Assembly: GCA_903833215.1 (NCBI GenBank)
Contig: CAILEM010000124.1
Coordinates: 1 to 64,000, forward strand
Length of the DNA stretch: 64,000 nucleotides
Source: an uncultured Armatimonadota bacterium
Lineage (GTDB): Bacteria > Armatimonadota > Fimbriimonadia > Fimbriimonadales > Fimbriimonadaceae
Reading direction: 5' to 3'
Part shown: positions 22,923 through 64,000 of the stretch, in pieces
Layout: every line of letters starts with the position of its first letter
How positions within the stretch are numbered: the stretch's first letter is position 1
Made by a program: the position numbers and the translations under genes
The notes under the pieces: generated by a model
Told to the model about the DNA's origin: nothing
Databases searched by the model: none
The model's input: only the letters and a program-made list of their open reading frames with translations

Positions 22923-25900
22923 TTAGCTTGCGAGGTTTTGAACCGCACAGCGGGGGCCAAGAACTTCTTCACCTATCGTGGCGAGATGCTTGTGATGCGT
23001 AAATAGCAGCACCTGCGTTCTATCGGCGAGACGGCCGAGCTCCTCCATTACGCGACGTGAGCGTCGGTCGTCGAAATCCAGGAGGATGTCGTCGGCAATA
23101 AATGGCAACCCTTCGCGACGGTCAACGTGGTGATAGACGCAGGCCAAACGTAGGGCAAGGTAGAGGCCAATTCGCGTCGCTGAGCTGAGTGCCTCAACTT
23201 TAAGCCGCTCTTCGGCACCGGTGTGCTTCGAAATCCTAACCGCCACCAATACCGGTTGGTCTTTGTCGTCGACTTCGGCTGTCAGTTCCGAAAACGAACC
23301 GTCGGTCAGCACCGAGAATATCTCGCCTGCTTTCGTAAGGATGGGGCCCTGGTTTGCGCGTCGAAATTCTTCGATTTGAGCCCGAATGAGGGACTCCGCC
23401 AGCATGTAAATCAGATAGGGTCGGACGGAGGAACGTACTTTCGCCAGAGCACTTTCTGCGAGGATCTGACTGTCGATTTGGGTCATCGTCGAGTCGAGAA
23501 TCTCCAGATCCTTGGAAGCGACACCAAAGTCCTTGTTGAGTTGCTCCAGCGTTTCCGTCAGGCACTCGTCATCAATTTTGAGTTGCTCAAGCTGAACGCG
23601 CGCGATATCGGCATCGATCCCTGCAACCTCGTCGATGAAGGCCTCGATGGGGGTGCCACTGGCCAAAGTGGCCAACTGATCTTTCAACTCATCAATTCTC
23701 TTTCCAAGTTCAAAGCTTTGGTTGAGGTTGTCAACCATCGCGGCGAGGGCGTCTACGGTTTCGGTCTCTGCCAGCCGGCAAAGCTCCTCGAGCTTGCTTT
23801 GTGTAGAGGTAGCGTTTGCGAGTGCACCGTCCAGCGTGCTCATTTGCTCCGACAATTGACTCCCCAAAGATTGAATGGTCGCATCTGCCTGAGTGGACTC
23901 GTTAAGGAGCTTAACCAGATTTTGGACCGCGTCAAGGGGCGTCAATCCTTGAAATTGTGGTGCGATCGCTTGCACAAGTTCGGTGACGGCATCGGAAAAT
24001 GCTTGGTAGTCGCGCTCCATCCCCTTAACCCGCTTTTCAGAAAAGTGGGCTGCCTCGAGCCGCTCACGTGCGCTGTCGATGGTATTGACAGCCTCGAATG
24101 CCTCAGTCGGAGTTGGGATACGAGAAAGTTGCAGGCATGAGATCTCCGATTTCCAATCGATGTCCCACTGGACAAGCCGGATTTGGGCTGCGTCGATTGC
24201 GGCAGAAATCTCTTCGAGTTGCTGCTTGTTTGCCCTGATTTGCTCAATGAGGGTCGTGCGTCGTCCTTTTGACTCATCCGCAGTTCGAATCAATGCGTCT
24301 GCTTCGGCTAGCGCTACTGCAAGTGGGAGGGCGGAGTCGATTGTTGGAAGCGAAGCAGCCAAAGCTTCTTTGGCCATCGCAATCTTGGTATTGAGTTCGT
24401 CAACTTCATCGTCGAGCTTTGACATCCTCAATATGTCTGTGCTCAATGCGTCAAATCGATCCCGCCATTCAAGCATCAAGGTTGGAGTTTCAACGTGAAC
24501 ATTGGTTTGTTCCCAGCGCTTAAGCCATTCGGTGTTGAGCGTCTTTCTTTCGACCGTCACTGCCTCGATTGCAGCCAACAATTCCCTGATGCTGAGGTCG
24601 AAATCTCGAATTCGGGATTCGATTGCGGTGAGAGATGCGACACGGTCCGCCTCTCTTCTTAACCGGTCCGAAACCGTGTCTGCCGAAGCGATCGATTCTT
24701 CGAATAAAGTTAGCGAAGCGGCGGGCACAGGCTGAATTGGAGTCGATTCAAAACTGCATTTGATCTCTCGCCACTGACCATCCCGCGTCACACGAATTTC
24801 GCTAAGCTCGGATTCTGTTGGCACGCTTCCGCCGAGCACGAACGCTCGCTTTTCCGATTCAGCAGTCTGACGATCTGAGTTCAGTCGACTTTCGCTCTGA
24901 CGTAATTGAGTCAATTGATCTTCAATCGCCCGAAATCTCTGTTCGAATTCTTTGATGACCGACTTCGAAGGGGCGACAGTCCGAACGAACTGTTCAAAAG
25001 TTTGCGCGCCAGCATCACACTGGGCTTTCAGTTGTTCACAAGCCGCACGCAGACTCTTATTCTCAGCCCTTTTTGATTCAAGTCGGGCTTCAATGTCACC
25101 AAGATTGCGGGCACCTGCGACTGCGGCGGCCAGCTTTTGCGATACTTGTATCTCTGCAATTCGTTCAAGCTCGCTTTCGGCACGGGTGAGACCCGTTAAC
25201 AGTCCTAAACGATTCGACTGGGCATTTCTCAGCTCTTCGTCAAGCCGCGCCTTCTCTTGCCCCAGTTGTTGAATGCGTTGTCTTGCGTGTCCCACTTGGA
25301 GATTCGCTACTTCGGGTTCTTCTCCGGGACGTACCGAAGCAAGCTTGGATCGTGCTTCCGCATATCCTTCGGTGACCTTTTTGGCTTCCGAAGGGATATC
25401 CGCGAGATGACTTCGCATTTGCTGAACTTGCATATTCAGCCCTTCAATTTGTTCGCGGCGCAGGAGAATATCGTTGTCCACACGGATGGCTTCAATGCGC
25501 TGCCTAATCAATTGACTCTGCAGAGTCGCATTCTCAACGATCCTTTGGGCTTCACTCAATTCCAGCTGAAGCGTGGAAAACTGAGATGGAAACCCCAAGC
25601 CAACGTTGGGCAATACTCCCAAGCCGCCTAAAGCCTCCTGGGCTCGGATAATGCTTCGAACGAGAGGCTGGGCATTCAGATAGCGATTCAACTGGAGTCG
25701 CGCAACGCGCACTTTATCGAGGTTCTGCTTAATCTCTGATGTCTTTGCTGTGAGGCTAGCCAACCGATTTTGAATCTCTTTGTACTCAGAAACGTCACCT
25801 CGGCGCGTAACCTTTCGCTGGGCGTCGACGGTCCTTAGGGCATCGTCGATGGCTGCCTTGGACTTTGGGGAGCCCGTGTACAAATTCGCCATTTGCTTGG

Positions 25901-26390
25901 CAAGGGCTGCCTGAATGGTGCGCAGGCTCAGGTCAGACCTCGCCTCAAACAGCAGCTTCCCAAGTTCTCCGCCCGCTTCTAGGATGTTTTTACTACCTTC
26001 ATTGAGGCGTTGATAACTCAGGCAGAACAGAGCCTCAAATCCTGACTGAGACACCCCGCACAGGAATGGCTCCAATGCCTCATCCAAGACCACGCCTGAC
26101 TCATTGGACAACGTGTTCTTCTTGCCTTTTCGACGAATAAAAGCTGCGCGCGTACCATCAGCAAGTTCCAACTGAGCACCGATGCGCAACTGCTCGTAGT
26201 TGTGGACGTGGTCATCCGAAGTTCGATCTGCTATGCCGAAAAAGAAACCTTCGACGGCTCGAAGTGCTGAGCTTTTGCCTGCTTCGTTTTCCCCGAAGAC
26301 AACATTGACAGTGCCTTGTTCGATAGAAAGGTCGATATTCCGACCACTGAAGGGTCCGTATGCCCTAAGCTCCAGTGTTCGAATTCTCAT
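22923..26390 (-). CDS. YhaN/SbcC-like AAA ATPase with coiled coils
   Basis: 1155 residues. The N-terminal ABC half carries the Walker A GENEAGKS at 33-40 after MRIRTLELRAYGPFSG. Long coiled-coil regions fill the middle (about 180-950), and the C-terminal half holds the signature and Walker B (GLPFIADDILLDFDDRRS) followed by the His loop (LLFTHHKHL). This is the Rad50/SbcC architecture. Details fit the YhaN (AAA_27) subgroup. The ATGA overlap at its start with the metallophosphoesterase gene makes an obligate pair that processes DNA ends or hairpins. The coiled-coil assignment is by eye. Confidence 0.9.
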   Translation of the reverse strand: MRIRTLELRAYGPFSGRNIDLSIEQGTVNVVFGENEAGKSSALRAVEGFFFGIADRTSDDHVHNYEQLRIGAQLELADGTRAAFIRRKGKKNTLSNESGVVLDEALEPFLCGVSQSGFEALFCLSYQRLNEGSKNILEAGGELGKLLFEARSDLSLRTIQAALAKQMANLYTGSPKSKAAIDDALRTVDAQRKVTRRGDVSEYKEIQNRLASLTAKTSEIKQNLDKVRVARLQLNRYLNAQPLVRSIIRAQEALGGLGVLPNVGLGFPSQFSTLQLELSEAQRIVENATLQSQLIRQRIEAIRVDNDILLRREQIEGLNMQVQQMRSHLADIPSEAKKVTEGYAEARSKLASVRPGEEPEVANLQVGHARQRIQQLGQEKARLDEELRNAQSNRLGLLTGLTRAESELERIAEIQVSQKLAAAVAGARNLGDIEARLESKRAENKSLRAACEQLKAQCDAGAQTFEQFVRTVAPSKSVIKEFEQRFRAIEDQLTQLRQSESRLNSDRQTAESEKRAFVLGGSVPTESELSEIRVTRDGQWREIKCSFESTPIQPVPAASLTLFEESIASADTVSDRLRREADRVASLTAIESRIRDFDLSIRELLAAIEAVTVERKTLNTEWLKRWEQTNVHVETPTLMLEWRDRFDALSTDILRMSKLDDEVDELNTKIAMAKEALAASLPTIDSALPLAVALAEADALIRTADESKGRRTTLIEQIRANKQQLEEISAAIDAAQIRLVQWDIDWKSEISCLQLSRIPTPTEAFEAVNTIDSARERLEAAHFSEKRVKGMERDYQAFSDAVTELVQAIAPQFQGLTPLDAVQNLVKLLNESTQADATIQSLGSQLSEQMSTLDGALANATSTQSKLEELCRLAETETVDALAAMVDNLNQSFELGKRIDELKDQLATLASGTPIEAFIDEVAGIDADIARVQLEQLKIDDECLTETLEQLNKDFGVASKDLEILDSTMTQIDSQILAESALAKVRSSVRPYLIYMLAESLIRAQIEEFRRANQGPILTKAGEIFSVLTDGSFSELTAEVDDKDQPVLVAVRISKHTGAEERLKVEALSSATRIGLYLALRLACVYHHVDRREGLPFIADDILLDFDDRRSRRVMEELGRLADRTQVLLFTHHKHLATIGEEVLGPRCAVQNLAS

Positions 26391-48393: not shown

Positions 48394-48822
48394 TCGGCCC
48401 TGTTCCGATTCGGGTTAGTGAGCCCTGTTGCCAACGTTCTTGCGTCTCGGCGATGCTGTGACTCCTGATCACTGGGAGGTCCTGCAGTTACCGGAATGTG
48501 GAGTCTCGACTGCGTCGCGACGCAATGATTGCGTCTCGGCGGAGCCGGGACACCTTATCTCTGGGAACTCTCGTTGTTTCCGGAAATGTGGAGTCACGAC
48601 TGCGTCGCGACCGATAAATTGGACCGGATTTCCCCCACCAGAGCCTCCCCCGCTCAGACGCTGGAGAGGCCATCGGTGGTGCGGTGCTCCCGTTCATTCG
48701 AGAGTTTGCGGCTGCCGAATATGGTGTTTCTAGGCGACCACCGGCACGTCTGCTTTCCGAATTCAAGGGAGCATCGCGCCGCTGACAACGTCTCTTTGAG
48801 CCCACTGCAACAAGCGTGAGCC
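48394..48822. other. Gene-free region with 90-bp repeats
   Basis: 429 bp between the kinase and uppP. Most of its left half is the two-copy 90-bp repeat described separately. The rest (48620-48822) holds no gene or obvious signal. The open frames crossing it translate the repeats and share no family. Confidence 0.6.
48440..48619. repeat. 90-bp direct repeat, two copies
   Basis: The ttgcgtctcggcg motif recurs exactly 90 bp apart (48441 and 48531), and ggagtctcgactgcgtcgcgac/ggagtcacgactgcgtcgcg recur at the same offset. The copies differ at many positions in the middle (gatcactggga/tatctctggga). Similar in style to the array at 1-178 but unrelated in sequence. Function unknown. Confidence 0.75.
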
Positions 48823-52575: not shown

Positions 52576-54834
52576 GTGCCGGCACATACATCCCCTCCTC
52601 CTGCGCAACGTGGCGAATCTGAGTTTTGGGCTGAGTTGCTCAGGATTGACGACGATAAACTCCACTTTTGGTACGGCATCAACCTGGGTTCAGGTCAAGG
52701 TGTCGACATTGTTGTTGCAGATCAGGTCACTGGGTGCTACTGCCTTGAAGTCAAAGCGACTCCGCTTGATTTCATCAAGCAGCTTGACCTGCAGAGTTTG
52801 ACCCGCAAAGACGGAGCCCTATGTCCGTCGCCGTTTCGGCTTGCGAGTTACTCTGTTCGGTATCTCGGGGCGTATCTCGAAAAGACTTGGGATGCTCACC
52901 CAGACATGGTCGCGGTGGCCGTCTTCCCGCTCATCACTCGAGAGGAGTGGCTGGAAAGATTTGAGGGCGATGCTGTCTACGATTTGGCTGACAAGTGTTT
53001 GCTGAAAGACGATCTCGTAGACATCGAAGCATTCCGAGCGCGCCTCACTCATATCGCCGGAAGTCCCATCGGAAATCGATCGCGAAAGATCGAGTCATGT
53101 GACGTTGCCCCCGAGGCGGTTGAAACGCTTGACCAACTGCTGAAACTTTGCCGTGGACAATCGGTCGGATTAACGTCTTTCGAGGGCAGCGACAAAGACG
53201 CTGCTGCACTAGCACTGCTTGACGAGGTTATTGGCGTGGTTAAGGGGCCTGGTGCCGCTTATCACTCACCGGGAGGGACCTCGCTAGCACTGTGGCGTGC
53301 TGCGCTCTCAGACCCCAACGAGCGATTGCGAGTAAGCGTCGTGGGTGAATTCAAGTCAGGCAAATCGAGTCTCATCAATGCCGTGCTCGGCACCCAAGTC
53401 TGCTTCGTCGACGAATTCGAGGCGACCACCATCAACGCCCTTTACACAGATGGCCCAGCCGCAGGCGTATCTGTAATCAATGAGCACAACGATGTTGAAG
53501 CATGGACCGTTGATGAGTTCCTTGAACGATGTGCCAGCAAAGAGCTTGAGGGAATTCGGAGGATTACGGTTACGGTTCCAACGGGGCTGCCATTTGACCT
53601 TGTTGACAGTCCGGGACTAGGCTCAAATTCGGAAGGACTGAAAGAAGAAGCAGAGCTTGAAATTCGTAAAGCAGACCTTCTCCTTTGGACGGTGGACTGT
53701 AACGATGCTGGCAGTGCGAGAGAAGCTGCTTTCATAGGGCGAGCGCGCGAAGTGGGTCTGCCCATATTGGTTTTGCTTACCAAATCCGATGTCCTTGCGG
53801 ACGACGAGGTGGGTGCCCTAAGCGAATATCTTGCCGAGGGTCTTGGCGTCCCTGCAGAGAACATCTTGCCGATCTCCTCTCACACCCATTCAGCAGGTGG
53901 TAACGGCGGAGTAAACGATCTGATCGAACGTCTGAAATCCGCTGCCGTCCGGAAAGTTGACACCCAGGCGGAAGCGCACACCGCGAAGCTGCGTGATGCT
54001 CTTGACGGCGCTGGAGCCACTCTTCGGTTCTTGGTCGAGATCAATGCTCCCCATTCGCGATTCCTATCTATCGAACGAGGCTATCTTGAAACCAGTGCCC
54101 TCGGAGTTGGCGTAGCGGCAAAAGCGGAATGGCTTCGTGTCCTTCGAGAAGAATGCTCCCTGGTTGCAACGAACATTGCGAGCAAGTCCATCGACGATCC
54201 GGAAGTCGTGGAGTTGATGTTGCGCAAGGCACTCCCCGATGCTGTGAATCGTGCCACCGCCAAGTTCCTCCAAAGCCTGAAGCGGCTCGTAAGAGATGAA
54301 TGGAGAGGCGCGCTTGAGGAGCGAAGCCGGGAGTTTGAGCGCCAACTTACGGAGTTAGCGATTTCGCGTCCAGAGGCCAAAGCGGATCTGGAATTCTTGC
54401 GGAGCCAATCCGATGCGTTTCGGCTTCGAGCTGAGGTTCTCGGGACAGAGATCGAACCAGCAGCCCTCGACAATCGCCTGCTGATCGTTGGGCTAGGCGC
54501 AGCCGCTTCCGTGATTACGGTATCGATACTGCCCATCGCTCTTGCTGGCGTTGTCGCGGCCGTTGCCATTCGAGAGAAGAAGGCAAAAGGACAGCCAGCT
54601 CCTAATGTCGACCACCTCATTTCTTCTCAGATCGAAGGCGCCATTATCAGCAGCTTTGCAAGCGTTGAATCTGCTTTCGAACGTGCTATCGAGCGTATGG
54701 TCAACGAAGTTGCCGAGCGATCCCTAATCACTTTGCTCAAGCGCCGAGGCGGACCTGACCTTCCGACGATCCTCGCCATCGAGCGAAAGGCCAGTGACCT
54801 AATGGATGACATCGCTGCCTTCCAAAAATGCTGA
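52576..54834 (+). CDS. NERD/PD-(D/E)XK-like domain fused to dynamin-like GTPase
   Basis: 752 residues, GTG start. The N-terminus holds a nuclease-type core: D44 in GVDIVV and E58-V-K60 in CLEVKA, the D...ExK spacing of PD-(D/E)XK and NERD domains, with a following helix (SVRYLGAYLEK). A GTPase follows at about 250-470: G1 GEFKSGKSS at 257-265, G3 DSPG at 344-347, G4 TKSD at 402-405. A helical stalk-like region leads to a hydrophobic hairpin at about 636-666 and a helical end. It overlaps the next GTPase by 7 bp. The role is inferred: membrane remodelling, plausibly antiphage defence. Nuclease activity is unproven. Confidence 0.85.
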   Translation: MPAHTSPPPAQRGESEFWAELLRIDDDKLHFWYGINLGSGQGVDIVVADQVTGCYCLEVKATPLDFIKQLDLQSLTRKDGALCPSPFRLASYSVRYLGAYLEKTWDAHPDMVAVAVFPLITREEWLERFEGDAVYDLADKCLLKDDLVDIEAFRARLTHIAGSPIGNRSRKIESCDVAPEAVETLDQLLKLCRGQSVGLTSFEGSDKDAAALALLDEVIGVVKGPGAAYHSPGGTSLALWRAALSDPNERLRVSVVGEFKSGKSSLINAVLGTQVCFVDEFEATTINALYTDGPAAGVSVINEHNDVEAWTVDEFLERCASKELEGIRRITVTVPTGLPFDLVDSPGLGSNSEGLKEEAELEIRKADLLLWTVDCNDAGSAREAAFIGRAREVGLPILVLLTKSDVLADDEVGALSEYLAEGLGVPAENILPISSHTHSAGGNGGVNDLIERLKSAAVRKVDTQAEAHTAKLRDALDGAGATLRFLVEINAPHSRFLSIERGYLETSALGVGVAAKAEWLRVLREECSLVATNIASKSIDDPEVVELMLRKALPDAVNRATAKFLQSLKRLVRDEWRGALEERSREFERQLTELAISRPEAKADLEFLRSQSDAFRLRAEVLGTEIEPAALDNRLLIVGLGAAASVITVSILPIALAGVVAAVAIREKKAKGQPAPNVDHLISSQIEGAIISSFASVESAFERAIERMVNEVAERSLITLLKRRGGPDLPTILAIERKASDLMDDIAAFQKC

Positions 54835-57341
54835 ATGAAAAAACGTTAAGCCAGGCAGTTCATCTGTTTGAGCTGACGGAGCATGTTGACCGGCTGGATG
54901 ATCGACAAAGAGACGCATCTCTTGGCCTGCTCGTCATGGTGATTGGAGCAGGAAATTTTGGCAAGTCCAGCCTGATCAATGCGCTGTGTGGGCGAACCGT
55001 AGCACCCGTTTCCGTGCTTCCCAAGACGTTCAAGATCGACGTTTTCGCGGCAGGAAAATCCGGCTCTGCGCTTGTCAGAAACGTTGGTGAAACAAAGCCT
55101 ACGTCCGTCAGTTTCGATGAAGCGCGCCGTATCGAAGCGGAACGGGAACGCCAGTTCAAGGATGATAACGAGCGCAAACTCGCGGAGATCGTTTGGCTTT
55201 ACGACGACCTCGAACTGCCTTCGGGAATATCGCTGGTGGACACCCCTGGTATTTCCCAGGGTCTCGGTATCGGAGCAAAGGGCATTGCCTTGACGTCGGT
55301 TTTAGGATCAACCTTTGAGGTTGATGAAGTTTGGTCGAAGTGGTTTCATCGGGCTGATGTTGTGATCTGGGCGTTTTGTGCAAACAAGATGGAGGACGCC
55401 GATACACGGGAAGCACTCGAAGCAGCGTTGAAACTGTTTGACAAACCCATCCTCCCCGTGGCGACGAAAGCTGATCTGATTCCTCAGGATCGCTGGCCAG
55501 AAGTCGTCGCTCGATTCGAAGCTGCTTATGGCTATTTACTGCGTGATCGGCAAGCTGGAGAACTCCAGCTAACCGTCTGCGCGGGGAAAAACCCGGAGTT
55601 GGTTGGTTTTGGCATCAGCGAACTTCGGCGGCGGCTCGCCAAAGTCGCAGCAAAAGCTGAAATCGTCAAGTCGAGCGCGGACGAAGCGTTTCTTCGGGAT
55701 GAGTCGGTTGCAGTTTCACAAGTCCTTGATGAGACAGCGAAAGCCCTCGTGGCAAATCTACGTTCGATTGCCTCGTTGGGTGACTTCCTTGCCGAAGAAG
55801 CTAGGAAGGAGGCAGAAAGAGGCCGCGTTGATGCCGTGAGCCGAGTGAACGTCTACCTCGAGTCGGTGAGGCGAGACCCAAGATTGGAATTGGCAGCGCG
55901 TTCCGTTCACGAGGTCACCCAAGGTGGGCGATCTGGCAACGTGGAGGTGGAGGCCGGTGAGCAGTTACGTGGGCTGATTGACGAGCACCGCATCGAGCGC
56001 GAGGTCAACAGTGCATTTGCGTCTAGTGCGAAGGCGCTTGAGGCGACAGCTGATCGTTTGGCTCAAGGAATGGACGTCACAACGCTTAACTTCAAATCGA
56101 GCGGCAAAATCGACAAGCGTTCGGTGCCACTGAAGCTTAAGTTAAGGGCGTTCAGCGTTACGTCCAAGCTTGATTTTTCGATGCAGCTCAAGGCACCCAC
56201 CGGAATTTTGGCGCAAGCTTGGGACTTGATCAAGCGCCTACTCAAGGTGGATCGTTTCACAGTGAAGGACATTCATGCCGCGATGGCCAGTGCGTTGGAT
56301 ATTCCGACATCCGACCTTGTCGCGGCACGAGATCAAGCTCTCCGTGAGGGGCTTGCCCCATCCATACAAGCCGCCATCGAGTCCGCACTGATCGCACATA
56401 TCGAATCAACCGACCGCGAAGCCCTTAACCTTCTGAAGAAGGTCGATGAGTTTCTGCCGGAATTGGATGCTCCTGGCGCACCGATACGAGCGACCACTTA
56501 CGGGCCTCAGGCCGACTACTGGGCGACCCTCAGCCCCGACGCGGAAACCTTGTTAGGATTGGCCAAGTCAGAATTCACACGGACCATTCCTGCGCTCCGG
56601 ACGCTACTCTCAGAGCCTATCTCTTACGAATCCCCACGGGTCTTTCCGGAATTTCGCCAGTTTTGGGATGATCGGACGGTCGATCGGAAAGCGGTCTCCG
56701 TGTCGATTCGTCTTAAGGATCTGGTCGCGGGGGCCAAGGTGCGCGATCGGTTCGATGAACATGGCAATGATGTCAGTCAGGATGTCCCTTTATTGCCCCA
56801 GGTACTAGAGGCCCAACAGATCTTTTTGCAGGGCTCGAAGGCCATCATCGATCTTGATCGGAGACTGGGAGCCAGTGTGATTGGAGCTCGGTATCAATCG
56901 GCGGGACGTCAACTTTCCGAAGTCGCCGTATCGCTTTTACAGAATGCCCTCGCGGATTCCAGTCGACAATGGGTGGAGTCGGTGCGGCACGAGCGGATTG
57001 GACATTGGGTCTGTGGACAAGGGACCCTTATCGGCTCGATTGCGTTCCTCGTGATCACGCTTGTGTTGATCATTATCCAACCGATTGCTGGGCTGCTCGC
57101 CTTGCTCTGTTCGATTGGATGGTTTGGCCTTGGTTTTGCGCGTCCGTACCTTACTGCCCTATCCCGATACCAAAATGGCGTCGCCGAGCAGGTGGAAGCT
57201 GAGATCCTGCAGTGCCAAAGGGATGCGGCGGCTCGTTTGGATTCACACATCATCGATGACGTATTGCACGGGATGAGTGTTGAACTGGCACCGAGACCCC
57301 TGCAGCAACTTCTCTTGGAATTTGGACTCCTAGAGATATGA
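54828..57341 (+). CDS. Second dynamin-like GTPase of the pair
   Basis: 837 residues, ATG start overlapping the previous stop by 7 bp. The G domain comes first: GAGNFGKS at 40-47 (G1), DTPG at 138-141 (G3), TKAD at 213-216 (G4). A long helical region (about 290-730) is consistent with a dynamin neck and trunk. Two closely spaced hydrophobic stretches at about 735-770 (SIAFLVITLVLIIIQPIAGLLALLCSIGW) likely insert in the membrane, as in bacterial dynamin paddles. The tandem arrangement suggests a heteromeric pair like DynA-type or LeoA/LeoBC systems. No N-terminal nuclease domain here. Confidence 0.87.
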   Translation: MLNEKTLSQAVHLFELTEHVDRLDDRQRDASLGLLVMVIGAGNFGKSSLINALCGRTVAPVSVLPKTFKIDVFAAGKSGSALVRNVGETKPTSVSFDEARRIEAERERQFKDDNERKLAEIVWLYDDLELPSGISLVDTPGISQGLGIGAKGIALTSVLGSTFEVDEVWSKWFHRADVVIWAFCANKMEDADTREALEAALKLFDKPILPVATKADLIPQDRWPEVVARFEAAYGYLLRDRQAGELQLTVCAGKNPELVGFGISELRRRLAKVAAKAEIVKSSADEAFLRDESVAVSQVLDETAKALVANLRSIASLGDFLAEEARKEAERGRVDAVSRVNVYLESVRRDPRLELAARSVHEVTQGGRSGNVEVEAGEQLRGLIDEHRIEREVNSAFASSAKALEATADRLAQGMDVTTLNFKSSGKIDKRSVPLKLKLRAFSVTSKLDFSMQLKAPTGILAQAWDLIKRLLKVDRFTVKDIHAAMASALDIPTSDLVAARDQALREGLAPSIQAAIESALIAHIESTDREALNLLKKVDEFLPELDAPGAPIRATTYGPQADYWATLSPDAETLLGLAKSEFTRTIPALRTLLSEPISYESPRVFPEFRQFWDDRTVDRKAVSVSIRLKDLVAGAKVRDRFDEHGNDVSQDVPLLPQVLEAQQIFLQGSKAIIDLDRRLGASVIGARYQSAGRQLSEVAVSLLQNALADSSRQWVESVRHERIGHWVCGQGTLIGSIAFLVITLVLIIIQPIAGLLALLCSIGWFGLGFARPYLTALSRYQNGVAEQVEAEILQCQRDAAARLDSHIIDDVLHGMSVELAPRPLQQLLLEFGLLEI

Positions 57342-61700: not shown

Positions 61701-64000
61701 TTATGGTGTTAAGGTCAGGCTGACAGATTTCGTAATTCCGCCGAATGACGCGTCGATGCTCACTGGTGTTTGTTTGGAGACCTTCTTGTGGGTGACTGTG
61801 AAAGTCACCGTCGACTTTCCTGCCAATACCTTGACGGTGGCGGGAGCCGACGCAAGGCTAGCGTTTGACGAACTCATTGTTACCGTAATTCCAGCGGTAG
61901 GAGCTGGACCACTGAGGGTGATGGTTCCTGTAACGATCGTGGTTGCGCTACCTTTGACGCTGGTGGGCTTCAGCGATAGATCCGTTAAGACGGGTGGGTG
62001 AACCACTAAAATCGCTTGGCGGGTTCCAGTTCCGAGTGTAGCAGTGACGGCAGCCGATGTATCCGTTGTAACTCCTGTTGTAGTCAACGCAAAGGTCCCT
62101 GTCGTAACGCCTTCCGCAACAGTGACACTTACGGGGGGCTTCACTGCCAATGTGGAGGACGACAGTTTGACGACAACGGGACCACTCTTCAGGCCTGGTG
62201 AAGCGTTGAGGGTTACGGTGCCTTTCGCACCAGTACCGCCAGTCACGCTTGCGGGATCGATGGTCAGATTGGTCACCGCAAACGGATTTGAAGTTAAAAC
62301 AACGGTCTGAATGTCGTTGCCGACTTTGGCTTGAATGGTGGTTGACGATGTTTTAGTGACGTGGAGGTGGGTTACGGGAAACGTTACTGTGCGAGCAGAC
62401 CCAGTTAGGATGGCCTTGACCGAGGCGGGAACGGTAGCTACGGTTGGACTAGAACTGCTCAACTGGACCACTGTGCCTGAGGCTGGAGTAGGTCCACTAA
62501 AAGTCAGGGTTCCTGTGATTGTTGTCTGAGAGCCTCCGACAACGGTCGAGTCCGACAAACTGATTCCTGACAGCGAGTCGGGCTGAATGGAGAGGGTCGC
62601 TGTCGCGTTATTCGCACCTTGGGTCGCCGTGATCGTGGCCGTTGTTGGGCCTGTGACGATGCCCGTTTGGATGGTAAATGTGGCAATGGAGGAACCTGCG
62701 GGGACGGTTACAGTACTGGGCAACGTAGCGTTGGGAACACTGGATTTGAGGGTGACAACCATCCCACCAGCAGGAGCACTGCCGGTCAAATTGATGGTTC
62801 CAGTTGTTGCATTGCCTCCGACAATAGTGGCGGGATTAAGGACAATCGTCGAAAGTACCGTTGGATTAATTGTGAGTGGGGCGGATTTCGAGACATTGCC
62901 TAGAGATGCGGCTAGAGTGACAGTTGTTGTTGCCGCCACTCCTGAAGGAGTGATCGGGACGTTAAGGGAAGACGCTCCTTCCGGAACAATCACCGATGGA
63001 GGAACGAGGACAGCCGGATTGTTGGATGACAATTTGATGTTGGCGCCACCGGCAGGAGCAATCCCTGTCAAAGTAACTGTTCCCGTAACCTGCGTTCCCC
63101 CGGAAGCGGAAGATGGGTTCAAAATAAAACTCGAAAGGGCGGGTGGGTTGAGCGTTAGCACTGTGGATTGCGAAATCCCACCTTGTTTTGCCGTAAGGTT
63201 TAGAGCTGTGGGTGTTGGAACAGCCAGAGTCGAAATCGGAAAGTTGGCATAGGACGAGCCTGCCGCGACCTTGACGTTAGTCCCCACCACTGCGTTTTTG
63301 CTTTCCGAGGAAAGACCTACGACAATTCCGCCTGCTGGAGCCAGCCCATTCAGCTGCACCGTTCCCGTAGGAGAGGTTCCTCCGATAGCCGGATTTGGCG
63401 AAACACTCATATTGGATAGGTTCGGCGGGTTCACCGTAAGGGGAGCGGTGAATGCTAAACCATTGGCAGTTACACGGATCGTCGCGACGATGGGAGTCGG
63501 GGTCGGAACCGTCGCCACCGCAAAGGTTGCGGTGGTAGCCCCACTGATGATCGTCGTGGTTGCTGGTACCGTAACTCCCTGAGTATTCGAACTTAGGTTC
63601 ACCGTGAACCCGCCTGCGAGGGCCTTCGTGTTGAGCGTCACCGTACCCGTTGAACTGGCACCTCCGACGACTGCGGTGGGAGATAAGGTGACACTGGCCG
63701 GTCCCATTGGCAGGATGGTCTGGGTTTGAGATACGGTCGCCCCATTGTAGGAAGCTGAGATCACGGACGTACCGCCCACTGTCAAACCAGAGGCCGCAGT
63801 CACATTAAACGTCGTTAAGGTCGCTCCAGGGGAGATAAATACCGTTTGTGGAGCCGTTGCCAGTGCCGTATTCGAGGACGCAAGATTCACATAGACGCCT
63901 GGAGATGCCGCCGCTGCGGTTAAAGATACGACACCAGTCGACTTATTGCCGCTCGCGATAGTGGCAGGTGTTAATGTGATGCCAGCTAACGAACCAAATG
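61701..64000 (-). CDS. Partial Ig-like repeat protein, 5' end off the window
   Basis: At least 765 codons are visible and the frame is open to the window edge, so the start is missing. It contains about eight repeats of some 75-90 residues with a shared core (GG-x-x-x-TGTV-x-L-x-G-x-APAGG, then SS-N and VPAG). They are Ig-like beta-sandwiches rich in Thr, Ser and Val. The protein ends in the last repeat with no sorting domain or anchor. It is probably secreted or cell-surface and might serve as an adhesin or stalk. Repeats near the C-terminus are more diverged. Confidence 0.8.
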   Translation of the reverse strand, partial: FGSLAGITLTPATIASGNKSTGVVSLTAAAASPGVYVNLASSNTALATAPQTVFISPGATLTTFNVTAASGLTVGGTSVISASYNGATVSQTQTILPMGPASVTLSPTAVVGGASSTGTVTLNTKALAGGFTVNLSSNTQGVTVPATTTIISGATTATFAVATVPTPTPIVATIRVTANGLAFTAPLTVNPPNLSNMSVSPNPAIGGTSPTGTVQLNGLAPAGGIVVGLSSESKNAVVGTNVKVAAGSSYANFPISTLAVPTPTALNLTAKQGGISQSTVLTLNPPALSSFILNPSSASGGTQVTGTVTLTGIAPAGGANIKLSSNNPAVLVPPSVIVPEGASSLNVPITPSGVAATTTVTLAASLGNVSKSAPLTINPTVLSTIVLNPATIVGGNATTGTINLTGSAPAGGMVVTLKSSVPNATLPSTVTVPAGSSIATFTIQTGIVTGPTTATITATQGANNATATLSIQPDSLSGISLSDSTVVGGSQTTITGTLTFSGPTPASGTVVQLSSSSPTVATVPASVKAILTGSARTVTFPVTHLHVTKTSSTTIQAKVGNDIQTVVLTSNPFAVTNLTIDPASVTGGTGAKGTVTLNASPGLKSGPVVVKLSSSTLAVKPPVSVTVAEGVTTGTFALTTTGVTTDTSAAVTATLGTGTRQAILVVHPPVLTDLSLKPTSVKGSATTIVTGTITLSGPAPTAGITVTMSSSNASLASAPATVKVLAGKSTVTFTVTHKKVSKQTPVSIDASFGGITKSVSLTLTP

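Follow-up and report, generated by a model that had tools for sequence, protein, structure and literature searches.

An overlapping pair of dynamin-like GTPase genes in an uncultured Armatimonadota bacterium, one with a divergent NERD-like head, as a candidate accessory defence or envelope-damage system

Dynamins of bacteria are mostly paired, and many of them serve envelope maintenance (PMC6104087); since paired dynamins are the rule in bacteria, pairing by itself is no mark of defence. Among the closest described systems, Cj-DLP1 and Cj-DLP2 are encoded by tandem genes and, like BDLP, have been studied for membrane tethering. DynA of B. subtilis delays phage lysis (PMC8844932). In Eleos, two dynamins share one operon. 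NERD domains are present in BREX PglW and in DndF (PMC12839542), and TerY-P triads have been tied to restriction systems (PMC11090510). Here, we describe a pair of dynamin-like genes, A and B, found in a 64,000-nucleotide stretch of DNA referred to below as the window. Both of its elements, paired dynamins and a NERD domain of the kind carried by kinases and helicases, are already known; we found no description of a NERD-dynamin fusion in open-access papers, although absence from that literature is weak evidence.

The first-pass annotation had proposed two overlapping dynamin-like GTPases at positions 52576 to 57341, each with intact nucleotide-binding motifs and a C-terminal hydrophobic segment, and all of this was confirmed (Table 1). 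A and B lie on the same strand as two dynamins in one operon, and both exceed the curated cut-off of Pfam Dynamin_N (E=2e-11 for A and E=2e-14 for B). The G1, G3, and G4 motifs read intact in each protein, and hydropathy analysis gave one strongly hydrophobic stretch per protein near the C terminus, through which both A and B are predicted to contact the membrane. The stop/start overlap suggests that the two genes are translationally coupled, and the GTG start of A is supported by related heads, which mostly open with MP or VP and a nearby aromatic residue or His. An orthologous pair in a second genome (G202) is alike from end to end, with identities of 58% for A and 57% for B.

Table 1. Coordinates of the gene pair and its features in the window
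Feature	Position	Strand	Basis and remarks
Gene A, 752 aa	52576..54834	+	ORF; GTG start; NERD-like head, dynamin-type GTPase, and predicted helical stalk with hydrophobic paddle/TM-like stretch
NERD-like (nuclease-related) domain of A, residues 11-110	52606..52905	+	Sub-threshold Pfam NERD match; D44, E58, and K60 kept, motif Gln replaced by Leu
GTPase domain of A, ~residues 250-460	53323..53955	+	G1 GEFKSGKS 257-264, G3 DSPG 344-347, G4 TKSD 402-405
Hydrophobic stretch of A, residues 633-667, predicted membrane contact	54472..54576	+	Hydropathy; in G202 at residues 636-670
Overlap ATGCTGA, stop of A and start of B, 7 bp	54828..54834	+	Same overlap in G202, L024 12169-12175
Gene B, 837 aa	54828..57341	+	ORF; ATG start; second dynamin-type GTPase
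GTPase domain of B, ~residues 34-270	54927..55637	+	G1 GAGNFGKS 40-47, G3 DTPG 138-141, G4 TKAD 213-216
Hydrophobic stretch of B, residues 727-771	57006..57140	+	Hydropathy; room for a hairpin or two TM segments

A Foldseek search of both proteins, which the first-pass annotation had suggested as a check, matched A best to BDLP (9e-15) and to the Cj-DLP pair (3e-13) and matched B to BDLP (6e-10). With VIA, the GTPase domain of A gave Z scores of 18-20 to mitofusin, IniA, and BDLP, with rmsd values of 2.5-3.7 over about 210-230 residues. The models are of moderate confidence across the GTPase domains (pLDDT 63-89 by block in A) and of low confidence elsewhere in both proteins, including the stalk, which is modeled as helical with a pLDDT of about 50-75. 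By their Dynamin_N matches, intact motifs, and dynamin fold matches, A and B are bacterial dynamin-like proteins. Cj-DLP1/Cj-DLP2 and BDLP resemble them in the predicted fold across the GTPase domain and stalk and in the hydrophobic stretch for membrane contact, and the Cj-DLP genes share the tandem layout, but, unlike A, none of these proteins carries a NERD head. DynA, to which the pair may also be likened, has two dynamin units that work together and a reported phage-linked membrane role; however, its units are fused in a single polypeptide that lacks a nuclease head, whereas A and B are two genes with one G1 motif each. B made contact with the NCBI DynA model around G1 only, at 16.6 bits against a 1600-bit cut-off.

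The head of A had been called nuclease-like from the sequence, which proved right in kind. Although the window head scored only 17.5 bits (E=0.006) against Pfam NERD, under the curated cut-off of 22.1 bits, it is homologous to the head of A', a paralogue on contig C153 of the same genome that exceeds the cut-off (34.8 bits, E=2.6e-8), and a direct plasmid search with it gave a protein annotated as a NERD helicase (E=4e-4, 31% across 99% of the head). On the strength of this homology and the helicase match, we class the head as a NERD domain of divergent sequence. Its helices and strands are predicted in an order compatible with the alpha-beta core of NERD-type nucleases, but the structure model, with pLDDT mostly <50 in residues 1-85, is too weak for a claim about the fold. 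PglW of type 2 BREX, DndF, and the NERD helicases are likewise large NTP-dependent proteins with a NERD domain at the N terminus; in those defence proteins the partner domain is a kinase or helicase, whereas in A it is a dynamin GTPase.

In a search of 291 Armatimonadota genomes, for which A' and a profile of B served as queries, NERD-dynamins were found in the window, in G202, on C153 of the window's own genome (A'), and in G089, where the NERD head and the dynamin body are split between two contig ends (C110 and C86). We rejected the reading that the G089 protein on C86 is headless, as the gene most likely spans the break from C110 to C86. Family members that do lack the head are of the A' type in four genomes (G141, G243, G279, and G027) and of the window type in two (G237 and G095). 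Among 17 sampled pairs, NERD heads occurred in two Armatimonadota subclades only; a single origin of the heads gave a p-AU of 0.38.

In a tree of the GTPases, the A subunits and the B subunits fall into three corresponding clades: the window type (clade I), a second Armatimonadota type to which A' belongs (clade II), and a Bacillota type (clade III). With more sequences in the tree, B formed a single group at 100/99 support. Matching clades and a single B group are what would be expected of subunits that evolve or travel together, and, as judged from sequence comparison, A and B belong to an ancient family of A/B pairs. The gene order is A-B in the window and G202 and B-A in the remaining loci of the three clades; the Bacillota pairs have a coiled-coil third gene ahead of B and A, or, in one case, between them. 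Another genome of the window's genus (G012) carries three tandem, same-strand genes for another type of dynamin-like GTPase, two of which are separated by a small gene (L107 7802-13686).

The conserved NERD residues have fared differently in the two Armatimonadota clades. The nuclease core D ... ExK is present in the window head, and the downstream Gln, found in the other heads aligned, is replaced by Leu (SPFRLA). In the G202 orthologue, the Asp is replaced by Gln and the later Gln is retained, whereas clade II heads retain every motif residue. Because motif residues have been lost in both known clade I heads, the window-type head may be a binding and not a cutting domain, and DNA cutting by it appears doubtful.

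The distribution of the window-type pair is patchy: of the 20 genomes of the same genus that were searched, 2 contain it and 18 do not. In the window, the pair adjoins a beta-lactamase-like gene, and in G202 it has a uvrA-like gene on one side and an aminotransferase-like gene on the other; the two sites are unrelated and nonorthologous. In G247, the two genes downstream of the window pair are present without the dynamins. Presence in so few relatives, at unrelated sites, indicates that the pair is accessory, and the single conserved housekeeping locus that the first-pass annotation had named as evidence against defence is not what these genomes contain. The pair has a codon usage ordinary for the window, with no foreign composition seen. 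Searches of IMG/VR viral contigs with A, B, and the head gave no relatives, and no plasmid matched window A or window B.

The second pair of the same genome (G000), A' and B', lies beside a transposon on C153 (L025 1874-8172), which has TniA/TniB-like genes, a tyrosine recombinase, and a 651-aa orphan gene. Its 64-nt inverted ends (L025 1874-1937 and 8109-8172) carry TGTGAC... TGTCACCC repeats. The idea that A' and B' are mobile cargo was rejected, as the transposon ends 32 bp past the A' stop codon and the dynamins stand next to it, not inside it.

The window flanks consist of ordinary metabolism and transport genes. We found no convincing defence genes or defence island in them, PADLOC hits there being few and either weak or unspecific, and hit tallies likewise gave no convincing defence genes in the flanks of the G202 and C153 pairs. 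A Rad50/SbcC-like AAA protein encoded at window positions 22923-26390 (Pfam AAA_27, 3e-56) is possibly the source of the LmuB and JetC matches of PADLOC in the window. A direct repeat at 48440-48611, two copies 89-90 bp apart, falls within a short ORF whose coding status is doubtful. Related long repeat-rich proteins are encoded within ~5 kb of both window-type pairs (window 61701-63998 and L024 1381-5349); similar ones occur in G214, which has no dynamin pair. A protein of 270-310 aa recurs beside clade I and clade II pairs (L025 13576-14397, L031 3255-4091, L027 7822-8691, and L100 7925-8857); it had no Pfam match in the two copies scanned and is a possible further component.

The neighborhoods of several relatives look different from that of the window: defence or signaling genes stand beside these relatives, whereas the enrichment near defence genes for which the first-pass annotation proposed a test is not supported at the window itself. 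In G027 (clade II), vWA, PP2C, beta-helix, and kinase genes run directly into coiled coil, B', and A', and in G095 (clade I), PP2C and kinase genes form one run with B and A, immediately ahead of the mraZ/mraW cell-wall and division cluster (L120 1-17437). Armatimonadota genomes have only 1-5 PP2C genes each, and these two genomes 2-5, so adjacency of PP2C to the pair is unlikely to arise by chance (one to two percent per locus, calculated by hand). In G382 (Bacillota, clade III; L180 9687-18568), a CARF gene (Cas_APE2256) is followed, 2 bp downstream, by the coiled coil-B-A triad; Cmr genes belonging to a type III-B CRISPR locus accompany the CARF gene, and ThiF and JAB genes stand on the opposite side. 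At a further locus (L182), a HEPN/MNT pair stands upstream of B, and on a Ruegeria plasmid, more distant dynamin pairs adjoin kinase, FHA, and PP2C genes. This neighbor evidence comprises a handful of single loci, mostly of clades other than that of the window, and it supports, but does not prove, a role in defence or in a regulated stress response.

Considering these data, the most likely role of A and B is an accessory defence or a response to envelope damage against phage and other genetic parasites, a reading to which we give about an even chance. We infer complex formation, a membrane location, the activity of the head, and phage defence as follows. A and B would combine as subunits into a heteromeric machine of the bacterial dynamin type, as the presence of both in the same three clades of one tree suggests, and their overlapping genes would couple their translation. 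By analogy with Cj-DLP1/2, BDLP, IniA, and DynA, their hydrophobic paddles may hold them to the cell membrane on its inner side, and they may dimerize via their GTPase domains; GTP turnover could then allow them to tether, cluster on, or remodel the membrane at damaged sites. The NERD head of A would bring a nucleic-acid-binding or -sensing, or a cutting, activity to the membrane, near DNA that is being injected or released. The outcome may be that infection is limited, that lysis is delayed, or that the infected cell is killed.

A defence role is suggested by the patchy presence of the pair at unrelated sites, by the defence and signaling genes adjoining relatives in G027, G095, G382, L182, and the Ruegeria plasmid, and by precedent, TerY-P triads being tied to restriction systems (PMC11090510), NERD domains being present in BREX PglW and DndF (PMC12839542), and DynA delaying lysis (PMC8844932). 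Counting against it are the lack of convincing defence genes around the window and G202 pairs, the ordinary codon usage, the absence of viral-contig relatives and of plasmid matches for A or B, the motif residues lost from both clade I heads, and the small number of informative neighborhoods, mostly in other clades. Bacterial dynamins are, moreover, mostly paired, and many act in envelope maintenance (PMC6104087). As the main role of A and B, we regard defence as about evenly poised between right and wrong, versus envelope maintenance as a possible but somewhat unlikely one.

The alternative that survives best, tentative as it is, is that the pair maintains the envelope or repairs it under stress, tethering, fusing, or severing membrane after antibiotic, osmotic, or vesicle stress. 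The NERD head would in that case be a nucleic-acid-binding regulator and not an antiviral effector, and the role would be like the stress role thought to be played by IniA, DynA, BDLP, and the Leo proteins. BDLP, the Cj-DLP pair, IniA, and mitofusins are indeed the Foldseek and VIA matches, most bacterial dynamins are paired (PMC6104087), metabolism and transport genes surround the window pair, and the head has lost part of its NERD motif. However, a pair that is missing from 18 of 20 congeneric genomes, occupies unrelated sites, and adjoins defence or signaling genes in several relatives does not fit this role easily.

It is also conceivable, if improbable, that a vWA/PP2C/kinase triad switches the dynamins, which would be the output module of a TerY-P-like stress system under phosphorylation control, and that the window pair is a reduced version whose triad has been lost or is encoded elsewhere. 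Systems linked to TerY-P are represented beside relatives' pairs by vWA/PP2C/kinase genes (G027) or PP2C/kinase genes (G095), kinase, FHA, and PP2C genes adjoin the Ruegeria pairs, and in G089 a vWA/PP2C/kinase triad lies on a separate contig. The window pair, in contrast, has no adjoining triad, nor was one found at G202, at the second pair of the same genome, or at the Bacillota triads examined, and the window's own genome has only two PP2C genes, both on contigs other than the window's.

Membership in Eleos (LeoA/LeoBC) as a true but divergent form with an added nuclease head, the comparison with which the locus had first been introduced, is very improbable and was rejected on scores and coverage: two dynamins in one operon and a distant GTPase similarity of A are shared, and the Bacillota sister clade scores 75-88 bits against LeoBC, but the PADLOC LeoBC and LeoA models match A weakly (30.6 and 27.7 bits) and over the GTPase region only, B has no match to the PADLOC Leo models, and a genuine Eleos LeoBC comes from Bacillota (G323) and scores 313 bits, about tenfold over A. 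In the tree, LeoA and LeoBC fall outside A+B at 94/97, but on long branches and with three sequences. The first-pass remark that the nuclease-like head is foreign to Eleos agrees with this, as the Leo models do not cover a NERD domain and the head was seen, among the 17 sampled pairs, only in the two Armatimonadota subclades. The A/B pair is thus best treated, on present sequence comparisons, as a separate branch of paired dynamins.

Returning to defence as the preferred reading, a more specific and rather unlikely form of it is that the pair is a nuclease-tipped membrane dynamin, in which GTP-driven assembly would position or activate the NERD nuclease where phage DNA enters, and that the pair belongs to an A/B dynamin family not described before, whose members would be linked, in different bacteria, to TerY-P-type signaling, to type III CRISPR/CARF, or to defence loci of other kinds. 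Several jobs are suspected for bacterial dynamins, and the dynamin-NERD fusion, being open to mutation, offers a direct way into the question of how they are linked to phage defence. Relatives near TerY-P-type and type III CRISPR genes are the better-placed members of the family for such tests. If GTPase-dead and NERD-dead mutants were both to lose protection, membrane remodeling and nucleic-acid attack would be parts of one mechanism.
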